Assembly (NCBI GenBank): GCA_030038275.1
Contig: JASHPG010000176.1
Coordinates: 1 to 36,769 of the forward strand
Source: Candidatus Acidiferrales bacterium
Lineage (GTDB): Bacteria; Acidobacteriota; Terriglobia; Acidiferrales; UBA7541
Direction of reading: 5' to 3'
Length of the DNA: 36,769 nt
A program made the position numbers and the translations under genes. The notes below the pieces were generated by a model, which worked only from the letters and a program-made list of their open reading frames with translations, did no database searches and was not told the DNA's origin. Position 1 is the stretch's first letter; each line of letters opens with the position of its first letter. Shown piece after piece: positions 3,980-21,167 of the stretch.

Positions 3980-4054
3980 TTGTGTAGCAATTATGCCATT
4001 AGCATACCGTATCGTTACCAACGCTAAAGATATTGCCCATCCCTAAGCCTACCG

Positions 4055-4130: not shown

Positions 4131-5360
4131 TCAACTATGCAAAGAGATAGCGGAGCCCTCTTCCCATTGCTGAAGCATCCGTTCCCCAATCTCCACAAAC
4201 TCCCGATGCTGTTTCATGTGGGAGCGAACCTCTACAGCCGTCCCCAGAATCGCCTCGCTGATACGTTCTAAAATCTGCTTAACTTTTGCGGGTGTTCCAC
4301 CCATACGTGTTTCGCCAAACCTCTGCAGATCCTTTGCGGTTGGCCATTTGGTTGTACCGTTGAGCGTGAGCGCCAAGCTGTCTTTGGGCAGGTAAATGGA
4401 AGTAGTCACGAGATCGTATACGGGCGCAAGCCGTGCTTCACCCTGCACATCATCGTAAACAATCCCGAAATTCTTGAGATGCGCATCGCCATTGCGAAGT
4501 GCGCAATTGAGCGCGATCAGCGTGAATAGCTTTTCCATATCCTCGTTGACGTGTGTGGAATTTGCGAACTGCCCGAATCGTTTTATAACCGATGTTTCAT
4601 AGGTACCTCGATACTTCTCATCCGTCCTGCGGGCGTTAAGCACGCAGAAATCCTCAAACCCTCGATAGGTACCGTCCATACGCAGATCGAACCGGTCAAT
4701 CACAAGTGCCATACCGTCTTCAGAAAGTCGGTAGGGCGGCACGTCAAGTCCGCATTTTCGTGCGACTGCAAGGCAAAAATATTCATTGGCGGCTAGCTGC
4801 GGAAATTCGTTCGGCTCCCATAACTTTACGATGTGAGTCGCACCCTTGTAGCTCTGAGAGAGGCGTTCTTTCGTATGTTCCATTGCAGCGAAGGCTTCCT
4901 CGTCGCGTACGAGGATCTTAGGCTGGACGCCGCTGATGCCCGAAAACGAAGCGAACTTTTCAAGCAGGTAGCGAAATAGATCGCCTCCGCGCTTGCGTTC
5001 CAGGATTTCATCCACCGATTGGAAAGGCACCTCTTCGTTCAGCTGTTCTTTATCGCCGGTGTAACGGATGCGGCCTACCTGTGAGCGGCCGACAATTGAC
5101 AGCAGATCGAATTCGTCAAACGTGCCGGTGGCTTTTGCGAAGGCAAGGCGGAGACGCTCGCGCAAAACTCCCTCGGGCAAATTCATCTCGAAGATGGGAG
5201 GAAGGCCGAAGGGAGCACTCCACGACTCGAGCCGAACCGACATCGTGACTGAAACTGCACGTGTGGGTACCACGTTCGGCAGGTAAACAAACGTACTGCC
5301 GCGTTCTCCGTGGCGATCGAATAATCCCGCCTCAACGGCGTCGGTCCACACTTTGATCAT
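4131..5360 (-). CDS. hipA: HipA-family serine/threonine kinase toxin
   Basis: This 409-residue protein has the two-part HipA layout. The N-terminal subdomain (about 1-100) is followed by the glycine-rich SGVQPK loop (143-148). A C-terminal kinase core contains IDRFD (221-225), the catalytic loop RNGDAHLKNFGI with Asp292 and Asn297, and the metal-binding Asp316 in PVYDL. All key kinase residues are present, so it should be active. HipA kinases phosphorylate targets such as glutamyl-tRNA synthetase and cause growth arrest (family knowledge); the target here is unknown. ATG at 5360 overlaps the end of the upstream antitoxin gene by 29 nt, indicating one mRNA and translational coupling. Length is near the usual ~440 residues. 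Confidence 0.95.
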   Translation of the reverse strand: MIKVWTDAVEAGLFDRHGERGSTFVYLPNVVPTRAVSVTMSVRLESWSAPFGLPPIFEMNLPEGVLRERLRLAFAKATGTFDEFDLLSIVGRSQVGRIRYTGDKEQLNEEVPFQSVDEILERKRGGDLFRYLLEKFASFSGISGVQPKILVRDEEAFAAMEHTKERLSQSYKGATHIVKLWEPNEFPQLAANEYFCLAVARKCGLDVPPYRLSEDGMALVIDRFDLRMDGTYRGFEDFCVLNARRTDEKYRGTYETSVIKRFGQFANSTHVNEDMEKLFTLIALNCALRNGDAHLKNFGIVYDDVQGEARLAPVYDLVTTSIYLPKDSLALTLNGTTKWPTAKDLQRFGETRMGGTPAKVKQILERISEAILGTAVEVRSHMKQHREFVEIGERMLQQWEEGSAISLHS

Positions 5361-5610
5361 CGCGATCCTCTTTGAGGAGTTCGTCCAAGGTGGGACGAAC
5401 CGAGCTTGCGGCCTGCAGTTTTAATTCGAGCCCGAGCACAGCAAGCAATTTCGTCAGTTTTGAGAAGCCCATCTCCCCGGAGCGTCCGTTTTCGAGCGCA
5501 TCGATAGTGGCGCGGCTGATTCCCGCTTTACGTGCGAGCGCGGTCTGGCTAAGCTTGGATTTCTTGCGGTGCTCCGCGATCTGGCTACCAATATAGAATA
5601 GGTCTAGCAT
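5332..5610 (-). CDS. hipB: HipB-type XRE-family antitoxin
   Basis: The protein has 92 residues with a single XRE helix-turn-helix in the first ~65 (SQTALARKAGISRATIDALENGR). A short C-terminal tail (TLDELLKEDRDD) follows, of the kind that contacts the HipA partner. It lies directly upstream of hipA and overlaps it by 29 nt. The ATG at 5610 has no Shine-Dalgarno sequence. A TATACT -10 box ends only 7 nt upstream, so the mRNA is probably leaderless. Two inverted repeats lie at and upstream of the promoter, fitting autorepression by the HipB-HipA complex (known for the family; the sites themselves are inferred from sequence). Confidence 0.92.
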   Translation of the reverse strand: MLDLFYIGSQIAEHRKKSKLSQTALARKAGISRATIDALENGRSGEMGFSKLTKLLAVLGLELKLQAASSVRPTLDELLKEDRDDQSVDRRR

Positions 5611-5613: not shown

Positions 5614-5674
5614 GCCTAGTATATTAGGCGATACATTTAAATCAACATATAATGCTTGGAATGATAGGCATTCC
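5614..5674 (-). promoter_or_regulatory. hipBA promoter and operator-like inverted repeats
   Basis: Read on the minus strand, a TTGATT -35-like box and a TATACT -10 box (5618-5623) are separated by 16 bp. The -10 lies inside the inverted repeat GCCTAGTATATTAGGC (5614-5629). A second inverted repeat, GGAATG-N5-CATTCC, lies at 5658-5674. With the -10 only 7 nt from the hipB ATG, RNA synthesis would start at or next to the start codon. Binding at the first repeat would block polymerase directly. Confidence 0.6.
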
Positions 5675-5757
5675 GCATATTTGACAATTGGAACAGACTT
5701 CCTCCGCCAATTATCGCCCCTCGCTCTAATTTTGAACCTGGCTTTCCTTTATCCGTT

Positions 5758-5787
5758 TGTGGACATATAATACTCCACATATGGAGA
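5758..5787 (+). promoter_or_regulatory. xre-RES promoter with nested inverted repeats
   Basis: A perfect TATAAT -10 box (5766-5771) is framed by TGTGGA (5758-5763) and TCCACA (5774-5779), spacing 10. The right arm is shared with a second inverted repeat, CTCCA-N4-TGGAG (5773-5786), whose last arm also serves as the ribosome-binding site (GGAGA, 5783-5787). No good -35 is visible. The layout suits autorepression by the Xre antitoxin at both transcription and the ribosome-binding site. Confidence 0.5.
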
Positions 5788-5794
5788 CATGCCT

Positions 5795-6229
5795 ATGGCG
5801 ACTCTAAATCAGCAGGTGGCAGGCGTTACATGGGACCAGTCGGCCGATTTGTCAGACAGGACCGTGATCAAACGGCTCAGCCCGACTGGGATAAAAGCAT
5901 TTTTCAAAATTGCGCAATCATGGGAACTACGAGACGAAGATGCCAGGCAGCTACTCGGAGGAATATCGAATGGGGCCTTCTACGAGCTGAAACGAACCAG
6001 CGCGCGGTCGCTTGACCAAGATCGGTTAACGAGAATCTCTTTTTTGACGGGCATCTTCAAGGCGCTCAATATCCTTTACAGCAAAAAACTTGCAGATCGT
6101 TGGGTTCAACTTCCCAATTCCAATCCTATGTTTGGCGGCGACACTCCGCTCAAGTACATGATCAAGGGTGGTGTTCCGGCGCTTCTGCGCGTTCGCCAGC
6201 TTCTCGATTCAAGGCGTGGCGGACATTAG
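5795..6229 (+). CDS. Xre/MbcA/ParS-family antitoxin of a RES toxin
   Basis: From ATG 5795 the protein has 144 residues. It has an Xre-type HTH in the middle (LSPTGIKAFFKIAQSWELRD to GISNGAFYELKR). The C-terminal ParS/MbcA toxin-binding domain includes LYSKKLADRWVQLPN and the MFGGDTPLKYMIKGGVPAL signature, which is typical of antitoxins paired with RES toxins. ATG 5795 is preferred over ATG 5789 because GGAGA at 5783-5787 is 7 nt from it but only 1 nt from the earlier codon. The stop codon abuts the toxin start. Its role is to neutralise the RES protein and probably to repress its own promoter. Confidence 0.92.
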   Translation: MATLNQQVAGVTWDQSADLSDRTVIKRLSPTGIKAFFKIAQSWELRDEDARQLLGGISNGAFYELKRTSARSLDQDRLTRISFLTGIFKALNILYSKKLADRWVQLPNSNPMFGGDTPLKYMIKGGVPALLRVRQLLDSRRGGH

Positions 6230-6910
6230 TTGCTTCCTCCGATTTCATATCTGCGCCGAGATGACACGCACAGGCTGATTCCGTCGAGAAACGCCGACGA
6301 AAGCGTCTTGAATAGGCTCACAACGGACCAAGCTGAACTCGCGGATCTTTTTGAACTCGAAGGTGCTACCAATGAGCGCCTCCAGGGAGAGACAGGGCTA
6401 TTGCCGGGAATCGGCGTACGAGAACTCGTGTTTGGGCTTACTTACGCACATATCGTGAATGCCGCATTTACCCACGCGAGTCCTTTGGGTAACCGCTTCA
6501 ACGGCCCGGATCGAGGCGCATGGTATGCAGCATTTTCCTTGAAAACGGCCGCAGTCGAGGTCGCTTTTCACAAATCACAAGAGCTCCGCGAGATTAACTG
6601 GCCAGACGCGGAGACATTCCAGTATGCGGATTTTCTGGCTGATTTTCGCGGCGATTTTCATGACGTCAGGGAACACGATCAATTCAAAGAAGTTCTCGAT
6701 CCTGAGAGTTATGTGGCTTCCCAGGAGCTCGCTCGAGGACTTCTCAATGCGGGTTCTGCCGGAATTGTTTATCCGAGTGTCCGCGATAAAAACGGCACCT
6801 GCATCGCTTGCTTTCGACCTGCGCTGGTCAACAATGTTCGCAAGGATTCAGAAGTAATGATCACCTTTGCGAACGCATTCGCTCCGCCAACGATCGAAGG
6901 TCTGAAATAA
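6230..6910 (+). CDS. RES-domain toxin (NAD+-degrading)
   Basis: This 226-residue RES protein starts at TTG 6230, the base after the antitoxin stop. The N-terminus (THRLIPSRNADESVLNRL) matches the usual family start, which supports the TTG. Conserved RES residues are visible: Arg89 in NRFNGPDRG, Tyr99, Glu110 in AAVEVAFH, and Ser183 in GIVYPSVR. RES toxins such as MbcT and Res degrade cellular NAD+ (family knowledge). The gene is complete, with the usual C-terminus ending APPTIEGLK. Its last ~140 bases are present again, in degraded form, at 8392-8532. Confidence 0.9.
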   Translation: MLPPISYLRRDDTHRLIPSRNADESVLNRLTTDQAELADLFELEGATNERLQGETGLLPGIGVRELVFGLTYAHIVNAAFTHASPLGNRFNGPDRGAWYAAFSLKTAAVEVAFHKSQELREINWPDAETFQYADFLADFRGDFHDVREHDQFKEVLDPESYVASQELARGLLNAGSAGIVYPSVRDKNGTCIACFRPALVNNVRKDSEVMITFANAFAPPTIEGLK

Positions 6911-7140
6911 TTGCAGGCCTGGTTATTGCTTGTCCGGGAGCTTTGGAGCTTTTCGGCGCAATGTGGATCGAAGGAAACCACGAAACCTGCCCCATCATCG
7001 CGAGCTTCGCTTCTCTGATTCTCGCCGCACAGTATTCCTCAAGCTTCGCCACTGCCTCCACCTTGTAGGTTCAGCGATCTTCACGTATCGCATGGTCATG
7101 CCGATTGGCAAGTGGCCCAAGCTCTTCTGCAGGATAGCCA
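6770..7140. repeat. Direct repeat copy A: RES 3' end plus integrase 3' end
   Basis: This ~370-bp block comprises the last part of the RES gene (plus strand) and, convergent to it, the last part of an integrase gene (minus strand). It is strongly similar to 8392-8756 in the same orientation. Long stretches match almost base for base, including the part encoding NNVRK and SEVMITFANAFAPPTIEGLK. Copy A has the intact RES end and a degraded integrase end. Confidence 0.85.
6911..7140 (-). pseudogene. Remnant of a tyrosine recombinase C-terminus
   Basis: On the minus strand this reads AILQKSLGHLPIGMTMRYVKIAE. After a one-base deletion it continues VEAVAKLEEYCAARIREAKLAMM. It matches the C-terminus of the intact integrase at 8593-9756, including the GH box and the nucleophile Tyr in RYVK. 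The frameshift, and loss of the stop codon (TAG to TGG), show it is dead. Nothing upstream of the ILQK region is preserved. Confidence 0.85.
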
Positions 7141-7302
7141 GATGGCATGCGGCCGACCTTTGATCTCGTATCGTTTTCGGTTGATCGCCAAGGGAGAGTC
7201 TATGAACCTGACTGGAAGAGGATCACAAAGAGGGAGAGGAATGCGATGGGCTATGTAGTCGCGCCATTCCCCCTCACTGATGACAGAAACAGGCATCCTC
7301 TA

Positions 7303-7336
7303 TATACGTATAGATTGTCGTATATACTGCTATACT
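7303..7336 (+). promoter_or_regulatory. vapBC promoter region with short palindromes
   Basis: TATACGTATA (7303-7312) and GTATATAC (7320-7327) are perfect palindromes just upstream of a TATACT -10 candidate (7331-7336). A strong ribosome-binding site follows (GGAAGGAGG, 7341-7349), then the vapB ATG at 7356. No convincing -35 box is seen. The palindromes are plausible sites for autorepression by the VapBC complex. Confidence 0.45.
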
Positions 7337-7355
7337 AGTTGGAAGGAGGCTGGGC

Positions 7356-7610
7356 ATGGCACTAAGCATCAAAAACAGCGAGACGGAACGCCTGGCGCGA
7401 CAGGTGGCGAAAGAAGCTGGCGAATCTCTAACCGAAGCGATCGAGAGTTCCCTTAAGGAACGGTTGCAACGGCTTCGGCAGCGACGCCGCGGTCGAATCT
7501 TGACGGAAAAGCTCGAAGACATTTTACAGCGCGTCGATAGCCTTCCAACCCTTGATACACGGTCCGAGGATGAGATCTTGGGATATGACGTTCACGGAGT
7601 GCCCCGCTAA
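7356..7610 (+). CDS. vapB: VapB-family antitoxin (Rv0623/PSK-type)
   Basis: The protein has 84 residues. Its start (MALSIKNSETERLARQVAKEAGESLTEA would be the continuous reading; key parts are ETERLARQVA and ESLTEAI) is the ribbon-helix-helix-like DNA-binding part of the PSK-trans-factor VapB family. A charged C-terminal half ending with an acidic tail (SEDEILGYD) normally occupies the VapC active site. A strong Shine-Dalgarno, GGAAGGAGG, is 6 nt from the ATG. The stop overlaps the vapC start (TAATG), so the two are translationally coupled. Confidence 0.92.
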   Translation: MALSIKNSETERLARQVAKEAGESLTEAIESSLKERLQRLRQRRRGRILTEKLEDILQRVDSLPTLDTRSEDEILGYDVHGVPR

Positions 7611-8002
7611 TGGTCGTTGATACCTCCGCACTGCTCGCCATTTTCTTAGGCGAACCGGAACGGCAACACTTTTTGGAGCTCATCACCCAAGCCGAAACGC
7701 GGTGTATATCCGCCGCAAACGCGTTGGAAACAGGCATTGTGCTGGAGGCGCGGCGTGGCGAGGCTGCGGGTCGAGAGTTCGATCTTTTTCTGCATCACGC
7801 GAAATTTGATGTGATCTCCGCTGATTCCGAACAGATGGAAATTGCGCGAGTGGCTTGGCGCAAATACGGCAAAGGACGGCACCCTGCAGGCTTGAATTTC
7901 GGAGATTGCTTTGCCTATGCCTTGGCCAAGGTTCTGGGCGAACCGATCTTGTTCAAAGGTGACGACTTCAAAAATACGGATCTCGCGCCAGTTTTAATGT
8001 AG
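7610..8002 (+). CDS. vapC: VapC-family PIN-domain ribonuclease toxin
   Basis: The protein is a 130-residue PIN domain with the acidic residues in their usual places: Asp4 (VVDTSA), Glu40 (NALETG), Asp99 (NFGDCFAYALA) and Asp118/119 (FKGDDF). VapC toxins cut specific tRNAs or rRNA using metal ions held by these residues (family knowledge); the target here is unknown. The GRHPAGLNFGDCFAY sequence is typical of the VapC group that pairs with PSK-type VapB. The ATG overlaps the vapB stop. The pair sits alone between the two RES-integrase repeats. Confidence 0.95.
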   Translation: MVVDTSALLAIFLGEPERQHFLELITQAETRCISAANALETGIVLEARRGEAAGREFDLFLHHAKFDVISADSEQMEIARVAWRKYGKGRHPAGLNFGDCFAYALAKVLGEPILFKGDDFKNTDLAPVLM

Positions 8003-8391
8003 CGATCCTGCGGAAAACCTATCCACCCCGTCCTGTCGTTCATCAATTCCCTCGCGGGTATTTGGCAGTCCTGAGTCGAGACGAAACCAGATGTGTGTCG
8101 TGCTGAATACGTGCGTTTGCTCAAGCCTTGCGGTTAACGGTCGTCACTGTAGATTAAGCGCTACACCGCAAGCCAGAAGGCTCTGTCGCAGACCTGACAC
8201 CTTCTGGTTCTGTATCTTACAAATGCCCGCTCAAATAGCCCGGGACAAGCTTCTCCAAATTGGAAGATATGACTCAACACGTTCTGCGCCGGAGGATGCT
8301 GTCGGCGCCGAACGAAGGAATCTTGGTGACACGTGACTTGATTCGCATGTCGACGGACGCCGTTCACACGGAAAGGCGCGCTCTAGATGGC
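8003..8391. other. Intergenic stretch without a recognisable gene
   Basis: Between vapC and the second repeat copy no coding region, RNA or clear regulatory signal could be supported. It reads as degraded sequence; short open frames on both strands have no recognisable features. Confidence 0.5.
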
Positions 8392-8532
8392 TATCCGAGG
8401 TCCGCGAAGAAGACGGCATCTGCATTGCATGTTTTCGGGCCGGCGCTGGTCAACAATGTTCGCAAGGGCTCGGAAGTAATGATCACCTTTGCAAACGCAT
8501 TTGCTCCGCCAACGATCGAAGGTCTGAAATAA
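8392..8532 (+). pseudogene. Remnant of a RES toxin C-terminus
   Basis: The sequence reads VREEDGICIACFR. After one extra base it continues as ALVNNVRK then SEVMITFANAFAPPTIEGLK, closely matching the end of the intact RES toxin at 6230-6910. Upstream of 8392 nothing of the toxin (Arg, Tyr, Glu residues) remains, so it is non-functional. It forms the first part of direct repeat copy B. Confidence 0.85.
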
Positions 8533-8756
8533 TTGCACCCCTGTTGCGGTCAGGAATTTCCGAAGTTTTCGGGGCAATGCTGACCAAAGGAACTACGAAG
8601 CCTGCTGCATCATCGCTAATTTCGCTTCTCTGATTCTTGCCGCACGGTATTCTTCGAGCTTCGCCACCGCCGCCACTTTGTAGTGCTCGGCGATTTTGAC
8701 GTACCGCATGGTCATACCGATTTGCGAGTGCCCTAAAATCTTCTGCAAGATAGCCA
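8392..8756. repeat. Direct repeat copy B: RES 3' end plus integrase 3' end
   Basis: This is the same-orientation partner of 6770-7140. Here the integrase end is intact and continues into the full gene, while the RES part is a broken fragment. Recombination between the copies would remove about 1.6 kb carrying vapBC. Confidence 0.85.
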
Positions 8757-9756
8757 CGTTCGTACCAGATAGGATGGTTCGAGTAGCAAAGGTGTGGCGC
8801 AGATTGTAAAGGTCGATGACACCTCTCAAGCCGATCTTTCCGCAAACGCGATCATGCGCCTTGCGTACCGATCCAATGTGAGTGCCCGGTTTTGTAGAGC
8901 TTGGAAAAACCCAATAGTCTTCCGGGTGCTTCTTTCTCCGTCTTTTAAGCAGCTCATGCACTTCGTGACTCATCGACAGTGCGCGCCTAGCGTTTTTGGT
9001 TTTACCGCGGACGATAAAGATAGTGCGATTGAAAAAGTCAATGTTGGGGTAGGCCATGCGAAAGACTTCATCGGGTCGCATGCCTTGTCCGAGCATGATC
9101 GTGGCGACGCTTTTCAGGGGCTCGGAAGCCAGGGCCATATATTCGAGTTCCTCTTCGAACGATAGAACATAAACGTCCGGGATTTCCTCCGGAAATGGCC
9201 GCACCTGTCGTGCCGGACTCTTCCAGAGCAATCCATCATCCACAGCCATATTGAGAATCTTCTTGAGGGTACTAAGCTCGCGATTCACCGTCGCTGGCGC
9301 AATGGTTTGCGTTTTGCTTCCTTGCTTGGGTTCCTTGACCCGGCCGCTCCTGTAGTCCTCAATCATGCTCTTTGTGATTTGGTCCAGGAATTTGTCCTTG
9401 AACCGTTTGAGCAGGAATTTGAGATTATTGTTGTGTAGATCGATTGTGTTCTGAGCCAAGTTTCCTTCGATCCGCCCAAGGAACGTCTTGACGTATTCCT
9501 TGAACATAGGTGGCTGTTCACGCGGCCTCAACACATATGTTCCTTGGATCAGATCAGCTTTCAGAACTGCCTGCACGTTCTCGGCTAGGTGCCGGTTGGT
9601 GGATCGGGTGGATTTTCGATACCGACGTCCGCCGAATTCGAAGTCGTAATAGTAATATCTGCCGCGTTTGTAGACCGCCAAGAACAGGGTTCCTTTCGTT
9701 GCTATCGTCAAATAAGGTGGTATGCGATTAATTCGGGCGTACTTTACAGATTTCAT
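8593..9756 (-). CDS. int: Tyrosine recombinase / phage-type integrase
   Basis: This 387-residue site-specific recombinase is complete. The N-terminal arm/SAM-like DNA-binding part spans about 85-190 and the catalytic domain about 195-365. Catalytic residues are visible: Arg227 (GQGMRPDE), the Lys in GKTKNARR (251-258), Tyr317 in the usual His position followed by Arg320 (YNLRHTFATR), His343 (LGHSQIG) and the nucleophile Tyr352 (MRYVK). It is the best candidate for the enzyme that placed the island in the tRNA-Pro gene whose 3' fragment lies at 14,020-14,064, though it is over 4 kb from that end. The 3' end is duplicated at 6911-7140. A gene of unknown function ends 66 bp upstream on the same strand. 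Confidence 0.95.
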   Translation of the reverse strand: MKSVKYARINRIPPYLTIATKGTLFLAVYKRGRYYYYDFEFGGRRYRKSTRSTNRHLAENVQAVLKADLIQGTYVLRPREQPPMFKEYVKTFLGRIEGNLAQNTIDLHNNNLKFLLKRFKDKFLDQITKSMIEDYRSGRVKEPKQGSKTQTIAPATVNRELSTLKKILNMAVDDGLLWKSPARQVRPFPEEIPDVYVLSFEEELEYMALASEPLKSVATIMLGQGMRPDEVFRMAYPNIDFFNRTIFIVRGKTKNARRALSMSHEVHELLKRRRKKHPEDYWVFPSSTKPGTHIGSVRKAHDRVCGKIGLRGVIDLYNLRHTFATRTILSGTNVAILQKILGHSQIGMTMRYVKIAEHYKVAAVAKLEEYRAARIREAKLAMMQQAS

Positions 9757-9822
9757 GATCGTCGCGCCAGGCTTGCGCTACCGGTTTTACTGCCGGGCCA
9801 CCAGTTTTCCCCGTCGGGCATT

Positions 9823-11016: not shown

Positions 11017-11258
11017 GGAATTACGAGCGCCCTGATCAGATGATAGGCTTCAGGCAAGCCCGGAGAAGGATGGGCCATTCTGTCCACAATGGGGCCAAGT
11101 TCCTTTCGCTGCTGTCGCCCAATCAGGTGATAGCGCCTTCTCAAAAAGGGGAAGAATTCTGACACTGGGTTTCCAGAGGCGGACGTTTTAAGAGTGAATC
11201 GGTAAGAAGGCTGAATGGGGAGTTCACCAGTGAGATCTCAATTTTGATTTTTGCATAA

Positions 11259-11465
11259 CTACGACTGGTCGTCCGGCAAGAACTGCCTGCGATCTAATGG
11301 GGACAGTCCAACCACTTTGCACTTATCCCTACCCTTGTGCCTCTCCGCGATCAATTCATCGACGAGGGAAATGCCCGGTTCAACGTGTTTGCGCACTAGG
11401 CTCTGAGCATGTTGGAGACGATCCTTGAAGATTGCGATACGTAGTTCATCGTTCTCGTTTAGCAA
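11259..11465 (-). CDS. Small antitoxin-like protein
   Basis: TTG at 11465 preceded by AGGAG with 5-nt spacing gives a 68-residue protein. A longer reading from ATG 11534 has no ribosome-binding site. It contains FKDRLQHAQSLVRKHVEPG then SLVDELIAERH. This resembles the C-terminal, toxin-binding part found in small antitoxins paired with PIN toxins, from memory of such sequences. No toxin gene lies next to it, so it would be an orphan or a remnant. It could also be unrelated. Confidence 0.4.
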   Translation of the reverse strand: MLNENDELRIAIFKDRLQHAQSLVRKHVEPGISLVDELIAERHKGRDKCKVVGLSPLDRRQFLPDDQS

Positions 11466-11649
11466 GATAACTCCTCGTATCAGACACGTCCAACAATCCG
11501 CCTGACCAAACGCCAACCGAACTGGATAACCCATTCACTGGCCCAAAAGCCCACGTGGCAAATAATGCTAATTCTATGGAAGATTGAGTTTAAAAGACGA
11601 TTACATTCTTCCGAGGTCTGCAAATCTGAATGCCATTCGCCCCTTCTTC

Positions 11650-11679
11650 GCTGTGGGGAAAAGTGTGGAGACTCGATGC
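11650..11679 (+). repeat. 30-bp direct repeat, left copy
   Basis: This copy begins GCTGTGGGGAAAAGTGTGG and matches 13,879-13,908 at 28 of 30 positions in the same orientation. Weaker similarity extends about 20 bp upstream. The two copies flank the winged-helix/nucleotidyltransferase pair and the higBA remnants. Confidence 0.8.
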
Positions 11680-11708
11680 GTTTTGGATCGCCCAGCGATT
11701 GCGTTTGC

Positions 11709-11731
11709 TATTCGCGAATAACAAATATACA
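11709..11731 (+). promoter_or_regulatory. Palindrome and -10-like box before the winged-helix gene
   Basis: TATTCGCGAATA (11709-11720) is a perfect 12-bp palindrome followed by TATACA (11726-11731). The ATG at 11740 comes 8 nt later with no Shine-Dalgarno, so a leaderless transcript with operator control is likely. The -35 region is not convincing. Confidence 0.45.
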
Positions 11732-11739
11732 ATAAACAT

Positions 11740-12288
11740 ATGGCTTTAAAACCCCAAGACGTGGTGGTTCTCATAAAGCTCCTTGAATATGGAGACAAGC
11801 GGCCCCCTTACGTTCAAATTGCTAAGCAGCTTTTCTTGAGTGTCTCCGAAGTTCATGCGGCTGTTCAACGTGCCAAGCAGGCGCGCTTGCTGACTGGCAT
11901 TGAACTGCACGAGACTCCCAACAAATCTGCCTTGGAAGAGTTTCTGGTTCACGGGTTGAAGTACGCGTTCCCACCAGAACGCGGCGAACTTACCAGAGGT
12001 CTACCCACTGGCTACGCAGCGGAGCCTCTTAAGAGCAGGATTTCCGCCGGCGCTGATCCTCCGCCTGTTTGGCCATTTCCTGAGGGCAAGACACGAGGGA
12101 TCTCGTTCATTCCTCTTTATAAAACGGTTCCGAGGGCAGCGTTGCGAGATGCGTACCTCTATGAAATGCTCGCGTTGACCGACGCCCTTCGAGATGGAAG
12201 GTCTCGCGACCGTCACATCGCGGAAGAAGAAATCAAGCTCAGGCTGCAGTCGCCGAAATATGCAGACCTCCAACATCGAGCTTCTTAA
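11740..12288 (+). CDS. Winged-helix antitoxin/regulator partner of an AbiEii-like nucleotidyltransferase
   Basis: This 182-residue protein has an HTH at about residues 5-55 (VVLIKLLEYG, YVQIAKQLFLSVSEVHAAVQRAKQARLL), typical of MarR-like winged helices. The middle is Pro-rich, and a C-terminal helical part (DAYLYEMLALTDALRDGRSRDR) is followed by a short tail. It overlaps the next gene by 29 nt (ATG 12260). HTH proteins of this size are commonly found directly upstream of nucleotidyltransferases of the AbiEii/AbiGii type and are probably their antitoxins or repressors (family-context knowledge, not shown here). The gene looks intact although the partner is broken. Confidence 0.75.
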   Translation: MALKPQDVVVLIKLLEYGDKRPPYVQIAKQLFLSVSEVHAAVQRAKQARLLTGIELHETPNKSALEEFLVHGLKYAFPPERGELTRGLPTGYAAEPLKSRISAGADPPPVWPFPEGKTRGISFIPLYKTVPRAALRDAYLYEMLALTDALRDGRSRDRHIAEEEIKLRLQSPKYADLQHRAS

Positions 12289-12955
12289 AAACGTCGCGAA
12301 GCGATTAAGTCCTCTCTTAAGCGAAGTCGTTTTCGTCGGAGGCTGCACTACAGGTTTGTTCATTACCGACCCGGCTGCGTCGGAAGTCCGTCCGACGTTT
12401 GATGTCGACGTGATTGCCGAGATTACGTCTTACGCTGACTACGACACTTTTTCAGAGCGCTTGCGAGTCTTGGGGTTCCGAGAAGATACCAGCGAGAACG
12501 CTCCACTGTGCCGCTGGCTGATCGACAAGATGATATTGGACGTGATGCCGATCGAAGAAAGAATTCTCGGCTTTACAAATCGGTGGTATAGATCTGCCAT
12601 GAATGCGGCACAAGAAATTGAACTCGAGCCAGGACTTCGCATTCGCGTGGTCACTGCTGCCTATTTCATTGCCACAAAGCTTGAGGCTTTCCGAGGACGT
12701 GGCCGCGGCGACTACACTGCGAGTCACGACCTCGAAGATTTGGTAGCCGTGATTGATGGACGAGAGGAGATCGTCGAAGAAATAGCTGCTGTCGCAGAAA
12801 TATGATCCTACATCGCCGAGCAATTTCGCAGCTTGCTCGCAAATCACATATTCATCGATGTCTTACCGGGCTATCTCCTCCCTGACACCGGCAGCCAGGG
12901 TCGTTTGTCAATTTTAGTAAATAGAATGACCGAAATCTCCAAATTGCCCGGATGA
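12260..12955 (+). pseudogene. AbiEii/AbiGii-like nucleotidyltransferase toxin with an in-frame stop
   Basis: From ATG 12260 the protein shows the nucleotidyltransferase core: VVFVGGCTTGLF (Gly27-Gly28) and RPTFDVDVI with metal-binding Asp48 and Asp50. These are followed by LEAFRGRGRGDYTASHDLEDL, typical of AbiEii-like toxins. A TGA at 12803-12805 stops it at residue 181. The same frame continues without interruption as SYIAEQFRSLLANH and VLPGYLLPDTGSQGR, as in full-length relatives, to a second stop at 12953-12955. A CGA-to-TGA transition would explain it. The truncated product retains the active-site residues but lacks about 50 C-terminal residues. Such enzymes modify tRNA 3' ends or other targets (family knowledge). 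Confidence 0.8.
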
Positions 12956-13443: not shown

Positions 13444-14019
13444 CAGAGCGATCATGGTTTTCCAACCTCACAGGAATAAGCCGTTGCTCCACTTCTAGCC
13501 GAACCGAGTCGCCACACTCACCGGCCTCACCCGCGCTGTTCGCTGCCTGCACTACGCTCCCGGATCACTTTCCTTTTCGAGATAACCTCCGTCATGATAT
13601 TGCTCAGAATCACTTGCCTTGTGCAGCACCCTTTCGCTAAAGGAGGGCAAGAGTTGGCGATCAGCCCTCGCTGGGGTTTACAAAGTACTCTCGATCCCTA
13701 GGCAATTCTCCTGCCGAGGACGCGTAGCGCACATCCATTTGGCACATTTGACGAACGCAGCTTGCCGTGCTAGAGAGTCTCTGTTGGGAGCAGCAGCGAT
13801 GAACCGAGACGTTCTCCCCAAGAAACGATCCCAGGACCAGAGTTCTTCTGGCGAGCCGCAATGTTTCGCTTCAATTTTGCTGTGGGGAAAAGTGTGGGGA
13901 CTCCATGCATGCGCAACCACATTCTCGCACATCCTGCCACCGCCAATTTTTCCGCTAAGTCCATTTGTTTTCTGTATTCGGATTGAAAAGAAAGGGCTTC
14001 CAAGAAATAGCCCGGACGT
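13444..14019. other. Non-coding stretch at the island end
   Basis: No gene could be supported here. The only structure noticed is the right copy of the 30-bp direct repeat (13,879-13,908). Open frames on both strands lack family motifs or ribosome-binding sites. Confidence 0.5.
13879..13908 (+). repeat. 30-bp direct repeat, right copy
   Basis: It matches 11,650-11,679 at 28 of 30 positions. It lies about 110 bp before the tRNA-Pro fragment, so it may belong to the recombinase binding region of the attachment site. That role is inference. Confidence 0.8.
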
Positions 14020-14064
14020 CTTGGGCGCAGGAAGTCTGGAGTTCAAATCTCCACGCCCCGACCA
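14020..14064 (+). other. tRNA-Pro 3' fragment: probable island attachment site
   Basis: The sequence folds as the 3' half of a tRNA. It has an anticodon loop CTTGGGC (anticodon TGG), then the 3' anticodon strand GCAGG, the variable loop AAGTC and a T arm TGGAG-TTCAAAT-CTCCA with all five pairs. It ends with acceptor strand CGCCCCG, A73 and CCA. G72 with A73 and the TGG anticodon indicate tRNA-Pro. The required 5' half (CGGGGCG and the CCTGC stem strand) is absent, and identity starts at the anticodon loop, a known crossover position for tyrosine recombinases in tRNA genes. The intact tRNA is expected to the left, outside the window. Confidence 0.75.
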
Positions 14065-14276
14065 ACGCACTCCCGATTGGTCACGTCTGAAACGGAGTTT
14101 TGTGCATTCGCGTATGCTGGCATCTCCGCGCTTGAATTCGGAATCTCACTGACATTATGATTCTGGGTCGGGCATAGTCCTGGCAAACCCGCACTACCGA
14201 AATGGAACTTCAAGCTAACAACGGCGAATCGTCTCCGCGGTGTAGGGTGCCTGCGCCCGCGCGCTCCCATTGGAGA

Positions 14277-14588
14277 ATGATCTGCAACCGCCTGGCGATC
14301 CTACTGCTCCTGATAGGCTTGGCCGGTCTCGCTGCGCGCGCGAAAGACGGCCAGTATTACCGCCGAACGAATCCGGAACGCGAATCGTCGCTAGCGACGA
14401 AAATGAACGTGTCTCCACCTGCGATTAATTTGCGGGCGCAACAGCTGCGAACCGGTGCGCGCGTCATGGTGGAACAGCCGCGGCCAAGCTTTCGCCCCCG
14501 AATCGAAGCTGAGCCTCCACTCGCCGAATCCGTAGGCGTGACGGTAGCCATGCAGCACCGGTCGCCGCCGCAATCCCTCCACTCGTAA
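14277..14588 (+). CDS. Small secreted protein of unknown function
   Basis: ATG at 14277 gives about 103 residues. The N-terminus is a typical signal peptide (MICNRLAILLLLIGLAGLAARA, likely cleavage after ARA). The rest is a short, basic, Pro-rich sequence with no recognised motif. GGAG at 14272-14275 is only 1 nt from the ATG, so the start is uncertain. A longer reading from 14202 would add 25 residues that spoil the signal peptide. It is the first gene to the right of the island border. Confidence 0.4.
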   Translation: MICNRLAILLLLIGLAGLAARAKDGQYYRRTNPERESSLATKMNVSPPAINLRAQQLRTGARVMVEQPRPSFRPRIEAEPPLAESVGVTVAMQHRSPPQSLHS

Positions 14589-14687
14589 TCCGTCTTTTCA
14601 CGAAAAATTCATAGCAAGACCAAGCGTTCAAAGGCCCCCTGAGGTACAGGGTTGCGCAATTTGATCATTGGCGGCAAGGGAGACCGT

Positions 14688-15413
14688 ATGAGTGCGGACC
14701 TGCTTGCGCCCGCTCAACTCGAGCAGTTTCAAAGGTGGAGCACCTGCGTGGTGTCCAGCGCTATCGAGACTTTTAATGTACGACTGCCGAATACCGGCTT
14801 CGCGGATTCGCGAATTCGCTGCATGTTTCCGGCGCAGCCTCCGGTGATCGGCTACGCCGCCACGGCGCGAATCCGCACCTCGAATCCGCCCATGGAGCGG
14901 CACACGCGCTTCGATTATTACGACCGCGCCGACTGGTGGCGGAACATTCTCACTATTCCCGCTCCGCGCATCGTGGTCATACAGGACGTGGATGATCCGC
15001 CGGGCCTGGGCGCCTTCATCGGCGAAGTGCACGCGAACATTTTGCTGAGCCTGGGATGTGTCGCGGTTGTGACGAACGGCGCCGTGCGCGACCTGATCGA
15101 CGTCGGGCACACGGAATTTCAGATGTTCGCCGGCAACGTTTCCGTCTCTCACGCTTACGCGCACCTCTTCGATTTCGGCACGGATGTCGAAGTTGGCGGC
15201 TTGGCAATCAAGCCGGGCGACCTGATCCATGGAGATTTGCACGGCGTGCAAACCGTTCCGCTGGGAATCGCCGGTCGCGTGGTGGAAGTGGCGCGCAGGA
15301 TCCGCCAGCGCAGGAATCATTTGCTTGCGCTGCGACGTTCGCCCGATTTCTCCATCGACAAGCTGCGCCAGGCGATTCAGGAGACGAGCTTCGGCGGCAA
15401 TGATGGCGAATAA
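14688..15413 (+). CDS. RraA-family protein (HMG aldolase-like)
   Basis: From ATG 14688, with GGGAG upstream, the protein has 241 residues of the RraA fold. The family signature is GEVHANILLSLGCVAVVTNG followed by AVRDLIDV (the Arg-Asp pair used in catalysis or metal binding), and later FGTDVEVGG, KPGDLIHGDLHGV. Members include 4-hydroxy-4-methyl-2-oxoglutarate aldolases and oxaloacetate decarboxylases as well as the RNase E regulator RraA. The substrate cannot be told from sequence. It ends 45 bp before the efflux adaptor gene on the same strand and may share its transcript. Confidence 0.85.
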   Translation: MSADLLAPAQLEQFQRWSTCVVSSAIETFNVRLPNTGFADSRIRCMFPAQPPVIGYAATARIRTSNPPMERHTRFDYYDRADWWRNILTIPAPRIVVIQDVDDPPGLGAFIGEVHANILLSLGCVAVVTNGAVRDLIDVGHTEFQMFAGNVSVSHAYAHLFDFGTDVEVGGLAIKPGDLIHGDLHGVQTVPLGIAGRVVEVARRIRQRRNHLLALRRSPDFSIDKLRQAIQETSFGGNDGE

Positions 15414-15458
15414 AAATTCAAGCACGACGCGGTCGCGATCGTTTTCAGGAGGCCGAAT

Positions 15459-16655
15459 GTGAGGTCGTTCATGCGAAATATCAGCAGCAGAGCGGTGCGG
15501 ACTGCGTTTGTTGGGACGGCGGTCCTTGGAATCGCGGCGCTCGCCGGTTGCGGCGGCCTCAGCAAGACAAAAGTCGTTGCTGCATCTCCTGCCCCGGACG
15601 TGGCCGTTGTTGCCGTGACGCGGCAGAACTTTGCCAACACGCTGCAAATCGCTTCCGAGTTCCAGCCGTATCAGGATATCGACGTGTACGCGAAAGTGTC
15701 CGGCTACATCAAGAACCTCTACGTCGATTACGGAACGCACGTCCAGAAAGGCCAACTGATGGCCGTTCTGGAAATTCCCGAGCTGAAGCAGCAGATTGAG
15801 CGCGACAAGGCCGCCGTGGCGGAGGCGCGAGAGGATCTCGACCGCTCCAACTCCGCTTTCAAAGTCGCGCACGTCACCTACCAGCGCCTCGCCGCCGTGC
15901 AAAAAACGCGTCCCGAGCTGATTTCGCAGGAAGAGATCGACGTGGCGCAAGGCAAAGACCTGGAGGCGAGCGCCGCGGTATCCGCCGCGCAGCAAGCGCT
16001 GATAGCGGCTAACGCGGCGCTGGCGAAGGATCAAACGCTCTACGGATACGCGCACATGACGGCGCCGTTCACCGGCGTCGTTACGCAAATGTACGCATAC
16101 ACAGGAGCGCTGCTGCCCGCAGGCACTTCTTCGAACATCGGCAATTCCGCTCTGTGCCATCTGGCGCAAAACGACGTTCTGCGGCTGGTGATTCCCGTTC
16201 CAGAGCGCGCCGTACCAGACGTGCGCCTGGGAGAAGACGTGCAGGTGCAAGTCTCCAGCTTGAACCGCACGTTCATGGGCAAAATCGCGCGCACCTCGGA
16301 CCAGATCGATCTTTCCACGCGCACCATGCACACCGAAGTCCAGGTGAACAACCCCTCGTATCAAATCGTCCCGGGAATGTACGCGACGGTTTCGATTCCT
16401 CTGCACACCGCGCGGAACGTGCTGGCCATTCCTCTGGAGTCCGTGCAGACCAGCGGCGCGAGCCAAGGAACTGTGCTGGTGGTTGATAAGGCCCATCGCA
16501 TCGTCCGGCGCGAAATCACATTGGGCCTGCAAAACGCCACAGATGTAGAAGTGACGTCCGGCCTAAACGAGGGAGAGCTGGTCATCTTTGGAGATCAAGC
16601 CCAATACCAGCCGGGGCAATTGGTGGAACCGAAACTCATAAAGTCGTCTTCGTAG
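15459..16655 (+). CDS. RND efflux periplasmic adaptor (membrane fusion lipoprotein)
   Basis: GTG 15459 lies 6 nt after AGGAGG and gives 398 residues. The N-terminus is a lipoprotein signal with lipobox LAGC near residue 31. It is followed by a barrel-sandwich lipoyl-like half (VYAKVSGYIKNLYVDYGTHV, KGQLMAVLE), a coiled-coil hairpin rich in Ala/Glu (ELKQQIERDKAAVAEAREDL onward) and the second lipoyl half (MTAPFTGVVTQMYAYTGAL). The beta-barrel and membrane-proximal domains end the protein. It links the inner-membrane pump to the outer-membrane channel. It is followed 16 bp later by the permease gene, so it is the first member of a three-gene efflux operon. Confidence 0.95.
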   Translation: MRSFMRNISSRAVRTAFVGTAVLGIAALAGCGGLSKTKVVAASPAPDVAVVAVTRQNFANTLQIASEFQPYQDIDVYAKVSGYIKNLYVDYGTHVQKGQLMAVLEIPELKQQIERDKAAVAEAREDLDRSNSAFKVAHVTYQRLAAVQKTRPELISQEEIDVAQGKDLEASAAVSAAQQALIAANAALAKDQTLYGYAHMTAPFTGVVTQMYAYTGALLPAGTSSNIGNSALCHLAQNDVLRLVIPVPERAVPDVRLGEDVQVQVSSLNRTFMGKIARTSDQIDLSTRTMHTEVQVNNPSYQIVPGMYATVSIPLHTARNVLAIPLESVQTSGASQGTVLVVDKAHRIVRREITLGLQNATDVEVTSGLNEGELVIFGDQAQYQPGQLVEPKLIKSSS

Positions 16656-16671
16656 TCGCGAGAGGAGTTAT

Positions 16672-19600
16672 ATGTCGTCGTTTTCATTGCGACATCCGTA
16701 TTTCATCGTTGTTGTTTGCCTCTTCGTATGCGTGCTCGGGCTCACCAGTTTGGTCCAGATGCCAGTGGACATGTTTCCGCACATCGACCTTCCCGTGGTC
16801 GAAGTAGCCACTTTCTACAACGGCATGCCGCCGGAACAGATCGAGGCGGACATCACCGGCCGCTTCGAACGGTTTTTCACTCTCGGCAGCGGCATCGACC
16901 ACATCACCTCGCGCTCGCTGCCCGGCGTCAGCCTCATCAAGGTGTATTTCCAGGCAGGCACGGATGCCAACGCGGACGTCACGCAAGTTTCCAATCTGGC
17001 CATGGCCGACCTCAGACGTTTGCCTCCCGGAACTCTGCCTCCCGTGGTGGTGAACAGCGGCGCATCCACGCTTCCGGTTTGCCTGCTGACGGTGGAGGGA
17101 AAAGGGCTCACCGAAACGCAGCTTCGCGACTATTTGCAGTTTGAAATTCGGGACCAGATCGCCGGAGTGCCGGGAGCCACCGTCCCGCCGCCCTACGGCG
17201 GAAAATATCGCGAAATCATGGTTTACGTGGATCCGCTGAAGCTGCAAGCCAATCAGCTGAGCCCTATGGACGTCGTCAGGGCTGTCAACAACTCCAACTT
17301 GATTTTGCCCGCTGGCGATGTGCGCATCGGCGCCTTGGACTACAACCTTTACACCAACGCGCTGGTGCCGAGCGCCAAGGCCCTCAACCAAATACCGCTC
17401 AAAACCGTCGGCGAGAGGTCGGTCTTCGTCTCGGATGTCGGCAAAGCTGTTGATGGCTCCGCGCTGCAATACAACATCGTGCGCGTCAACGGGCAGCGTT
17501 CCACATACGTCCCAATACAAAAGCAGGGCGGCAACAGCAACACCATTGCCGTGGTGGACGGCATCAAGGCCGCCATCAAGCATTTGCGAGATATTCCCGC
17601 GCAAATGAAGGCTCGCGTGGTGTTCGACCAGTCCGTGTTCGTGCGCCAAGCGATCTCCACGGTGGTGCGCGAAGGCGGAGTCGGCTTGATCTTGACTGCG
17701 CTGATGGTCCTGCTGTTCCTCGGCAGCGTGCGCGCCACCGTAGCCGTCTTTCTTTCTATTCCGATTTCGGTGATGGCTACTTTTTTCTTCCTTCACATAG
17801 GAAACGCCACCATCAACGCCATGATTCTCAGCGGCCTCGCGCTGGCGTTTTCGCGCCTCATCGATAATTCGGTGATCGTGCTGGAAAATATTTTCCGCCA
17901 CGTCGAGCTAGGCGAAAAACCGTTCATCGCCGCCGGGAAGGGGACGGACGAAGTGTCCCTGGCGGTTCTGGCGATCACCATCGCTACCGTAGTCGTGTTC
18001 TTTCCGGTCACCTTGCTCTACGGCGTCAGCAAATACCTCTTTACGGCGCTGGCCGTCAGCGTGGTACTGGCGCTCTTCGCTTCCTACTTCGTGGCGGTGT
18101 CGGTGGTGCCTCTCTACTGCGCGCACCTGCTGAAAGGCGTCGTTCATCATGGTCCCGCGGAAGCGGCTCCCGACGGCGGCGAGCATAGCGAACCGAAACA
18201 GGTGCCGCAGCCGCGAATGTCGCTCGGCGCCCGGTTCCACGCTGCCTTCAACGCCAAATTCGACCGCATGTTGGACAAGTACGACGCGACCGTCAAAAAA
18301 ACGCTCGATCATCCAAAACTCGTGGTGTTCGGATTTCTCGGCATTTTCCTGCTCAGCTTTGCCTTGTATCCGCGTGTCGGCCTCGCGTTCTTTCCACGTA
18401 CTGATGCCGGCCAGTTCATCATCAACGTAAAAGCCCCCACCGGCACGCGCCTCGAAGATACGGAGAATTACGTCAAACAGGTCGAAGGCATCATTCGCCG
18501 CGTGGTTGCTCCTTCCGATCTGAATACTATCGTTTCGAATATCGGCATTACTCCCGGCCTGGAATCGCTTTCCAGCCCGAATGCCGGAATGTACACCGCC
18601 TTCGTGCAGGTGGGTTTGAAGGAAGACCACAAAACCAGCAGCTTTGTGTACATGGATCGCGTCCGGACGGCCCTCGGCGAGCAGTTGCCGCAGTTGCGCA
18701 CCTTCTTTCAATCGGGAGGCCTCGTCGAGTCCGTGCTGAATCAGGGAGAAGCCGCGCCGATCGACGTGCAGGTCAGCGGCACCGATCTCAACGCCGACGA
18801 CCACGTGGCTATCGATCTGAAGCGCCAGTTTCAGACGATCGAGGGCGTTTCGGACGTTTACATTCCCCAGGATATGGACTACCCAACGCTCGAAGTGAAT
18901 CTGAACCGCGACCGCGCCAGCGAACTCGGCCTGAATCCTCGCGAAGTGGTCGATAACATCATCACCTCGCTTACCTCGGACGTGATGATTGCGCCGAACT
19001 ACTGGATCAATCCGAAAACCGGCAACGACTACTTCTTGGCCGTCCAATATCCCGACAATGCCACGAAATCGATTCAAGATTTGGACACCATGCCGCTTCG
19101 CTCGCCCAACCTGAAGCTGCCAACGTATCTCAACCAGGTGGCGGCCATAGTTCCCAGGTCCACTCCTTCGGAAGTGGACCACTACCAGACCGAGCGCGAA
19201 ATCGACGTATACGTGTCTCCTTCGGGCGAGGACTTAGGCCGTCCGGCAAGCGCGGTGGAAAAAATTGTCGCCAACATGAAAATTCCCCCCAACATGCGCG
19301 TCAACGTGCGCGGTCTGGTGAACACGATGTTCACCTCGTTCCGGAGTTTCGGCATCGGCTTGGTACTTTCGATCCTGCTGGTGTTTTTAGTGCTGGTGGC
19401 GCAATTCTCGTCGTTCCTCGATCCGTTCCTCATCGTTCTGGCGATTCCCACCGGGTTGGTCGGAGTGATGCTCACGCTGGCTTTCACCGATACCACTCTG
19501 AACATTCAATCGTTGATGGGCGTCGTGATGCTCACCGGAATGGTCGTGTCGAACTCCATCCTGATCGTGGACTTCGCCAATCGCTTGCGGCAGGAGGGGC

Positions 19601-19869
19601 ACAGCGTGCGGGAATCGGTCGCGCACTCCTGTCGCATCCGCTTGCGCCCAATCTTGATGACCTCGCTCGCCACCATCGTCGGGCTTCTGCCGATGGCTTT
19701 CAAACTCGAGGCTGGCAGCGAAGCGTATGCGCCGCTGGCCCGCGTGATTATCGGAGGATTGATCGTGTCTGTCGTGCTCACCGTCTTCGTCGTTCCAGCC
19801 GCGTACCTGATCGTATATGGGCATCGCCCAATGCGGGCCACGCAGCCCGCTGTGGAGGAGGCGCGATGA
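16672..19869 (+). CDS. RND efflux pump permease subunit
   Basis: This 1065-residue AcrB/MexB-like transporter is full length. It has an N-terminal membrane helix (YFIVVVCLFVCVLGLTSLVQM), two large periplasmic loops and twelve membrane segments in two halves. A cytoplasmic Glu/Pro-rich linker lies at about 495-515. The proton-relay site is unusual. In helix 4, SRLIDNSVIVLENI has Asp398 but Asn399 where AcrB has Asp408. In helix 10, GMVVSNSILIVDF has Ser960 where AcrB has Lys940. It exports small molecules by proton exchange (family knowledge); substrates are unknown. Its last codons overlap the outer-membrane gene (ATGA). Confidence 0.95.
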   Translation: MSSFSLRHPYFIVVVCLFVCVLGLTSLVQMPVDMFPHIDLPVVEVATFYNGMPPEQIEADITGRFERFFTLGSGIDHITSRSLPGVSLIKVYFQAGTDANADVTQVSNLAMADLRRLPPGTLPPVVVNSGASTLPVCLLTVEGKGLTETQLRDYLQFEIRDQIAGVPGATVPPPYGGKYREIMVYVDPLKLQANQLSPMDVVRAVNNSNLILPAGDVRIGALDYNLYTNALVPSAKALNQIPLKTVGERSVFVSDVGKAVDGSALQYNIVRVNGQRSTYVPIQKQGGNSNTIAVVDGIKAAIKHLRDIPAQMKARVVFDQSVFVRQAISTVVREGGVGLILTALMVLLFLGSVRATVAVFLSIPISVMATFFFLHIGNATINAMILSGLALAFSRLIDNSVIVLENIFRHVELGEKPFIAAGKGTDEVSLAVLAITIATVVVFFPVTLLYGVSKYLFTALAVSVVLALFASYFVAVSVVPLYCAHLLKGVVHHGPAEAAPDGGEHSEPKQVPQPRMSLGARFHAAFNAKFDRMLDKYDATVKKTLDHPKLVVFGFLGIFLLSFALYPRVGLAFFPRTDAGQFIINVKAPTGTRLEDTENYVKQVEGIIRRVVAPSDLNTIVSNIGITPGLESLSSPNAGMYTAFVQVGLKEDHKTSSFVYMDRVRTALGEQLPQLRTFFQSGGLVESVLNQGEAAPIDVQVSGTDLNADDHVAIDLKRQFQTIEGVSDVYIPQDMDYPTLEVNLNRDRASELGLNPREVVDNIITSLTSDVMIAPNYWINPKTGNDYFLAVQYPDNATKSIQDLDTMPLRSPNLKLPTYLNQVAAIVPRSTPSEVDHYQTEREIDVYVSPSGEDLGRPASAVEKIVANMKIPPNMRVNVRGLVNTMFTSFRSFGIGLVLSILLVFLVLVAQFSSFLDPFLIVLAIPTGLVGVMLTLAFTDTTLNIQSLMGVVMLTGMVVSNSILIVDFANRLRQEGHSVRESVAHSCRIRLRPILMTSLATIVGLLPMAFKLEAGSEAYAPLARVIIGGLIVSVVLTVFVVPAAYLIVYGHRPMRATQPAVEEAR

Positions 19870-21167
19870 TGGCGCGATCTCGCTGGATGTTCGCCGCCGG
19901 AATCTGCGCCTGTTTTACAACCGCCGCGTTGGCGCAGCCTCCAAAACCGCCGCAACAACTTACCCTTCCTCAAGCGGAGCAGCTCGCCATTCGCAACCAT
20001 CCACAGCTTCAAGCGGCCCGCAACTTGGCCACGGCGGCGAATGAGCAGGTCGCTCAGCAGCGCTCCGCGTACTACCCGCTGGCCTACGGTAGCGCCACCG
20101 CCGTCGATGCCGAAAAAAACAGCCGCATCGCTGCGGGCGGGCTAAACAACCCGATCATCTACGACCGTTACAGCAACGGGTTTCTGGTCGATCAGATGAT
20201 TACCGACTTCGGGCGAACCCGCAATTTGGTGAAGAGCGCGAATTACCGCTCCCAGGCGGCAAACGAGGACGTCCAAACCACGCGCGAACAGGTGCTGCTC
20301 GGCGTCGATCAAGCTTACTTCGGTGTGCTGAAAGCCGAAGCCGTGCTGAAAGTCGCGCAGGAGACAGTCAAAGAACGCCAGTTGGTTTCCGATCAGGTCA
20401 TCACGCTCGAGCAAAACAAAATAAAATCTGGCCTGGACGTCAGTTTCGCCAACGTCAACCTCGCGCAGGCGCAGCTCATGCTGGTGCAGGCGCAAAATGG
20501 CGTGCAAGACTCCTACGCGCAACTCTCCGAGGCGCTTGGCTACCCGGGCGAACAGACGTTCGATCTCTCCGACGTTCCCGTTCCTCCCGCGCCCCCCGCG
20601 AATTTTGACGACTTGCTTCAAGAGGCGCTGCGCGAACGGCCGGAACTAATCAGCCAGAGGTTCCAAGCGGATTCGGCCCATAGCTACGCCACTGCCGAAC
20701 GCGATCTCTGGTTTCCGACCATCAGCGCGGCGGGCGCGGCCGGCGTGACTCCCGTGGGTGCTAACCAGCTCGCCACCCAATACGCCGCGGCGGGCGTCAA
20801 CGTGAACATCCCGATTTTCAATGGCCATCTTTTCGGCGCGTTGCGCGGCGAAGCGCAATCGCGCGCTCGCGCCCAAGATCAAGACCTGCGCGATTTACAG
20901 GACCGCGTGGCCCGCGATGTTCGCACCGCGTGGTTGAATGCCAACACTTCGTTTCAGAATCTCGGACTCACTGACAAACTCCTCAACGAAGCCAATCAAG
21001 CCCTGCAACTCGCGCAATCCCGTTACAGGCTCGGGCTAAGCTCGATCGTGGAATTGACTCAGGCGCAGCTCAATCAGACGCAAGCCCAAATCCAGCAGGC
21101 CAGCGCGAAATATGACTATCAGATCGCAACCGACGAACTGAATTTCCAGTTGGGCGTTCTCAACTGA
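19866..21167 (+). CDS. TolC-family outer-membrane efflux channel
   Basis: The protein has 433 residues with a signal peptide (MMARSRWMFAAGICACFTTAALAQ). Two repeated OEP halves consist of long amphipathic helices, e.g. LTLPQAEQLAIRNHPQL, IKSGLDVSFANVNLAQAQL, and the second-half YRLGLSSIVELTQAQLNQTQ. It forms the trimeric outer-membrane tunnel for the adaptor and permease encoded upstream. The ATG overlaps the permease stop, with GGAGGAGG in the end of the permease gene serving as ribosome-binding site. Confidence 0.95.
   Translation: MMARSRWMFAAGICACFTTAALAQPPKPPQQLTLPQAEQLAIRNHPQLQAARNLATAANEQVAQQRSAYYPLAYGSATAVDAEKNSRIAAGGLNNPIIYDRYSNGFLVDQMITDFGRTRNLVKSANYRSQAANEDVQTTREQVLLGVDQAYFGVLKAEAVLKVAQETVKERQLVSDQVITLEQNKIKSGLDVSFANVNLAQAQLMLVQAQNGVQDSYAQLSEALGYPGEQTFDLSDVPVPPAPPANFDDLLQEALRERPELISQRFQADSAHSYATAERDLWFPTISAAGAAGVTPVGANQLATQYAAAGVNVNIPIFNGHLFGALRGEAQSRARAQDQDLRDLQDRVARDVRTAWLNANTSFQNLGLTDKLLNEANQALQLAQSRYRLGLSSIVELTQAQLNQTQAQIQQASAKYDYQIATDELNFQLGVLN

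Follow-up and report, generated by a model that had tools for sequence, protein, structure and literature searches.

A 3' fragment of tRNA-Pro(TGG) in an Acidiferrales contig very probably marks the right end of a decayed tyrosine-recombinase element

The window analysed here, which is the whole of contig C72 (36,769 nucleotides) in the assembly of a Candidatus Acidiferrales bacterium, carries a 45-base sequence that looks like the 3' half of a tRNA gene, which raises the question of how half a gene came to lie at this place and where the other end of the responsible element is. A preliminary description had read the fragment as the right border of a genomic island that began at an intact tRNA-Pro(TGG) gene further left, outside the window. 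It had proposed aligning the fragment with that gene and comparing the locus with a relative lacking the island.

A search of the window's own genome (G000) matched the fragment (CTTGGGCGCAGGAAGTCTGGAGTTCAAATCTCCACGCCCCGACCA) to positions 33-77 of an intact tRNA-Pro(TGG) gene on another contig, C24, with a single mismatch, a G-to-A change in the variable loop. The E value of 1.5e-15 ruled out a chance match as the origin of the fragment. Its first seven bases are the anticodon loop CTTGGGC, with the anticodon TGG inside, and it also has a T stem paired throughout (TGGAG/CTCCA), G72, A73 and CCA. The 5' half is absent, the 10 bases preceding the fragment (GCCCGGACGT) matching the tRNA gene at 5 of 10 positions. 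On the extent and pairing of the fragment, and in placing an intact gene outside the window, the preliminary description was borne out. As would be expected of half a gene, ARAGORN called zero tRNAs in the window and Rfam had no hit within 13500-14700 up to E = 1. Only the intact gene on C24 and the window fragment were found in the own-genome search, with no second intact TGG copy or further tRNA-Pro fragment in an assembly that is 88% complete. The same genome thus holds an intact tRNA gene and a displaced end fragment, the arrangement of tRNA-gene islands made by tyrosine recombinases.

Comparison of element ends distinguished three families (A, B and C) on the 3' side of tRNA-Pro(TGG), and the sequence directly left of the fragment is a family-A right end. 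A search of 95 genomes of the order with the 160 bases that precede the fragment gave 17 places in 14 genomes, the window's own included, two of these places lying inside the window (Table 1). Among the 15 copies elsewhere, 13 were 74-80% identical over 130-151 bases, and 11 continued straight into a tRNA-Pro 3' half through CCA. The copy in G110 retained only CTTAG and met a contig end soon after, and that in G069 was a 47-base partial arm. Two copies, L100 (G035:C125) and L110 (G066:C224), kept CTTGGGC and then departed from the tRNA sequence, which is one basis for placing strand exchange at this motif; these two may be secondary-site integrations, or may have decayed.

We then compared 13 ends, the window's included, by alignment with free end gaps, leaving out L099 (a near copy of L098), L105, L109 and L113. 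Mean pairwise identity was 0.784 over the 150 bases left of the loop (shuffled 0.046), 0.729 over the 45-base core (shuffled 0.210) and 0.079 over the 150 bases right of CCA (shuffled 0.051), and the window's left arm was 0.65-0.79 identical to the other twelve ends. Conservation among the ends stops at the tRNA, so that element-specific sequence extends to the crossover site and no further; with element sequence on the left and tRNA on the right, this supports the earlier proposal of a crossover in or very near the anticodon loop. Some family-A ends show degenerate tRNA likeness up to ~14 bases left of the loop, and the match of G013:C36:34709-34767 starts from position 19, so the cut site does not simply coincide with the point where the tRNA match begins. 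The fragment fitted the intact tRNA of its own genome at least as well as that of any other genome in 9 of 10 comparisons (G062 and G068 were left out for want of a clear intact TGG gene), G077 going in the opposite direction. Another genome tied in 7 of these 9 because neighbours share alleles, and the fit is compatible with a host-derived right half rather than strong proof of one.

Table 1 Features of the window (positions are those of the whole contig).
Feature	Position	Strand	Evidence or remark
Displaced 3' half of tRNA-Pro(TGG), positions 33-77, putative attR core	14020..14064	+	44/45 identity to G000:C24:3206-3282
CTTGGGC anticodon loop, probable strand-exchange region	14020..14026	+	Element sequence left, host tRNA right; exact cut sites presumed
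Right end (arm) of family-A element	13860..14019	+	15 copies in 13 other genomes (95 searched)
Repeated motif in arm, possibly a recombinase arm site	13876..13908	+	91% copy at 11647-11679
Second arm-motif copy without tRNA core, probable remnant of another element end	11647..11679	+	Arm-motif match (partial in arm search)
Tyrosine integrase, 387 aa, full length; putative cognate of the family-A end	8593..9756	-	PF00589 E=1.7e-25
RES-toxin 3' end remnant beside integrase C-terminus, where the left end is expected	8392..8532	+	Sequence comparison
Remnant of second, related integrase C-terminus	6971..7140	-	6770-7140 matches 8392-8756 at 82%
PDC-M21A-like candidate defence protein, cargo	11740..12288	+	PADLOC E=1.9e-40
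PDC-M21B-like candidate defence protein, cargo	12194..12805	+	PADLOC E=5.3e-63
PSK_trans_fac antitoxin and PIN toxin pair, cargo	7356..8002	+	Pfam
Xre/MbcA antitoxin and RES toxin pair, cargo	5789..6910	+	Pfam
HipA kinase and HTH partner, cargo	4131..5610	-	Pfam
DUF4062 protein, cargo	2075..4021	-	Pfam; residues 172-344 match first fifth of PDC-S60 profile (PADLOC)
Right flank: small ORF, RraA-like, RND adaptor, RND pump, TolC-like	14202..21167	+	Family searches; TolC-like label is our own reading, made without one

It is very likely that the fragment is the attR of a family-A tyrosine-recombinase element which integrated in the anticodon loop of tRNA-Pro(TGG) and has since decayed, and that this kind of gene has been used by family C as well. 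Such an element would integrate by crossover in the anticodon loop of the host gene. Its attachment site would carry a tRNA 3' half of its own, rebuilding the gene at the left end, while the host's original 3' half would be displaced to the right end, where the fragment now lies. The integrase encoded in the window would be its most likely recombinase, and the lack of a left end beside that integrase would reflect the decay. A family-C element would have used the same kind of tRNA gene, its left end adjoining the intact gene on C24.

The integrase had relatives at E <= 1e-60 in five other genomes of the 95. In all three close orthologues, from G013, G064 and G065 (72-76% identity), ~70-105 bases separated the end of the match from the 3' terminus of an intact tRNA-Pro(TGG) gene. 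The distant relatives in G105 (43%) and G106 (42%) adjoin a tRNA-Asp (L145, G105:C154) and a tRNA-Pro-like 3' half at which no intact tRNA was called (L146, G106:C155), so targets vary in the wider integrase family. The element side thus contains a tyrosine integrase gene which, judging from its orthologues, probably belongs with the window's right end. In the window the integrase and the family-A right end share one contig, and G013:C36 carries a family-A left end beside an intact gene together with a family-A right end. In G013 and G065 the family-A right end is present on contigs other than that of the full-length integrase, and for G064, which has the integrase, the 95-genome arm search found no family-A right end. 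No close relative of the integrase was found in viral contigs; in plasmids and phages, among the matches listed, the best were ~25-26% identical and every best place counted was below 60%, the plasmid count extending to 5000 records.

The C-terminus of the window's integrase adjoins a RES-toxin remnant, not a tRNA, and this junction occurs twice (Table 1), suggesting that the left end was probably lost before the junction was duplicated. Part of the second copy (7009-7143) matches the integrase gene of G013. Searches of Pfam, NCBIfam, PADLOC and PHROGs, at the thresholds applied, gave no match for a 397-aa ORF beside the integrase (9823-11016).

The two sides of the fragment differ in composition and content, with 51-55% GC left of 14,000 vs 58-60% on the right. 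The two left-side proteins tested in the genus were both rare, the integrase occurring in 2 of 20 genomes and the PDC-M21B-like protein in its own genome only (1 of 20 at E <= 1e-20), and the left side also holds duplicated and truncated pieces. The island side thus has the foreign, variable content that had been described as accessory and partly broken, and the right side is conserved, the RraA-like protein having a match at E <= 1e-80 in 15 of the 20 genomes. Within ~11 kb (2075-12805) the left side contains three toxin-antitoxin-like pairs (HipA/HTH, Xre/RES and PSK/PIN), the PDC-M21A/B pair and the DUF4062 protein.

The relative with the most similar RraA-like protein (G003, 86%) has a 48-base tRNA fragment at the matching place, followed by the same right flank (from 14117, with 85% identity across 2.3 kb); window bases 14072-14116, 45 in all, gave no alignment to G003. 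Left of its fragment, G003 has a family-C end, unlike that of the window. ARAGORN found no tRNA-Pro at 20 RraA loci, mostly with 1.5 kb flanks, nor in five longer stretches around RraA (G001, G005, G008, G009 and G033). Thus, of the two comparisons proposed at the outset, alignment with the intact gene succeeded, and that with a relative lacking the island did not: no empty site was found in the relatives examined, in which the RraA operon is not beside tRNA-Pro(TGG). In G008:C315:8000-13571, two tRNA-Pro 3' pieces lie ~640 bases apart, one of them ending where the contig ends. The molybdopterin/cytochrome gene that precedes the tRNA on C24 has a homologue near these pieces, oriented differently relative to them, and the locus may reflect a local rearrangement.

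The identity of the scar is as the preliminary description stated, and the feature is of an ordinary, well-known kind, but the further claim that a single island runs from the intact gene on C24 to the fragment is unsupported. Family-A left ends were found in G013 (C36 and C85), G064 and G065, family-B left ends in G004 and a second element of G013, and family-C left ends in G066, G030, G014, G011 and, at C24, in the window's own genome. The right ends were of family A in the window and twice in G013, of family B in G004 and G013, and of family C in G003, G011 and G030; four ends, the right one of G097 and the left ones of G021, G023 and G097, fell in no family. The left end on C24 and the right end in the window are therefore of different families, and on the G030 contig the partner of a C24-type left end is a right end like that of G003. 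An island extending from C24 to the window fragment as one element, with no array involved, is accordingly improbable. C24 ends 185 bases past the tRNA, within an integrase whose C-terminus faces the tRNA, which is the usual layout of a left end and would suit one island; that left end, though, groups with G066, G030, G014 and G011, and the window's right end with two of G013. C24 and C72 are separate contigs with no physical link. No family-A left end was found in the G000 assembly, a negative that is weak taken alone; G013 and G065 do match this end. G000 shows only a 25-base motif of the family-C right end, located at C24's own left end.

With ends of different families on C24 and in the window, it is likely that there is an array, that one element was replaced by another, or that the genome has a second tRNA gene. 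The simplest of these is an array at one gene that would join C24 and C72, with a middle part that was deleted or is absent from the assembly; the other two are the alternatives. Elsewhere, a gene and its scar share one contig in G030 (family C, 8.9 kb) and G004 (family B, 20.5 kb), and three fragments lie downstream of one intact gene in G013:C36. Among the matches listed, all eight 3' halves sharing a contig with an intact gene (G004, three in G013, two in G023, G030 and G097) were downstream of it in the same orientation. Counting against the array, it predicts a second tRNA fragment and a family-C right end, and neither was found in the 88% complete G000 assembly. It is also unlikely that the window's element belongs to a second tRNA-Pro(TGG) gene absent from the assembly rather than to that on C24. 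G013 does have two intact TGG genes, on C36 and C85, and both the differing end families and the incompleteness of the assembly would agree with such a gene; against this, a single intact copy was found in G000, and where a metagenome bin shows two copies, one of them may have been binned wrongly. That the fragment is a decayed tRNA pseudogene or a chance duplicate unrelated to integration is extremely improbable, for although no tRNA was called at it, strong evidence against this rival comes from the element end conserved in other genomes directly to its left, the drop in similarity beyond the tRNA on the right, the location of integrases next to intact copies, and the GC step.

A family-A right end, with a family-C element at the intact gene, therefore remains our preferred reading, in which several element families, differing in their ends, have inserted at one tRNA gene, and the comparison of their ends suggests a crossover in the anticodon loop. 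It also carries a caution for draft genomes: an intact tRNA gene and a fragment of it do not necessarily bound a single island. The kind of feature is known, and the members described here are new. In the portion of the Islander report used here (PMC4383910), the crossover was anticodon-centred in 2083 of 3919 islands, and 3760 islands had a 3' fragment and 159 a 5' fragment, so the 5' kind is known but uncommon. The window resembles those islands in its intact tRNA with a displaced 3' fragment, tyrosine integrase, anticodon-centred crossover and tandem arrays at one gene, and differs from them, as far as that portion describes them, in that the two ends in G000 come from different families and the window's element is without a left end of its own. 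The tRNA hot spots of Sinorhizobium meliloti, as presented in the consulted part of PMC11476347, are phage-related sequences in another phylum at other tRNA genes. Archaeal integration of the pTN3 type at tRNA 5' halves, going by the relevant section of PMC8371274, resembles 5'-half scars seen in relatives, whereas the window holds a 3' half.

Among the matches listed, 16 3' halves and 9 5' halves of tRNA-Pro(TGG) were found in the relatives, a count that may include some intact genes truncated where a contig stops, as G008:C315:13526-13571 reaches the end of its contig. All four 5' halves listed on contigs with an intact gene lay upstream of it (G004:C29:71804-71844, G021:C85:128919-128959, G100:C79:12826-12866 and, at 93 kb, G085:C4:334134-334175); G030 provides a fifth, upstream of the end at G030:C62:95111-95241. 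The six 5'-type ends aligned in 15 of 15 pairs, and this end, designated family D, had matches at E <= 1e-6, many of them partial, in 31 of the 95 genomes; a tRNA-Pro 5' half preceded it in 7 of the 30 loci read. A partial match in G004 covers positions 12-41 and then passes into a family-D end, on the other side of the intact gene. The 5' halves with their conserved end suggest mirror-image islands, each supplying a tRNA 5' half of its own and probably a promoter.

In G064:C58 (L141:5562-8092) an intact tRNA-Pro(TGG) lies between two tyrosine integrase genes, both with the C-terminus toward the tRNA. The downstream one is the family-A integrase; the upstream one, with RepB-primase-like and secretion-ATPase-like genes behind it, may belong to family D. 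In G004 and G030, 3' and 5' scars surround one gene. We lean towards the view that, in this lineage, mobile elements exploit the anticodon loop of tRNA-Pro(TGG) from either side, with three or more families (A, B and C) replacing the 3' half and family D the 5' half, apparently with its own promoter. If so, the transcription start and the 3' half of this tRNA would come from different mobile elements. Ends resembling family D occurred at other tRNA halves too, which we named by our own reading and not by a tool call: 5' halves read as tRNA-Ala (L165, L176 and L177), halves read as tRNA-Arg (L166 and L175) and reversed 3' halves read as tRNA-Ala (L168, L169, L174, L180 and L183). At tRNA-Ala these ends apparently occur in both orientations, either of which the near-palindromic loop TTGCAA might permit.
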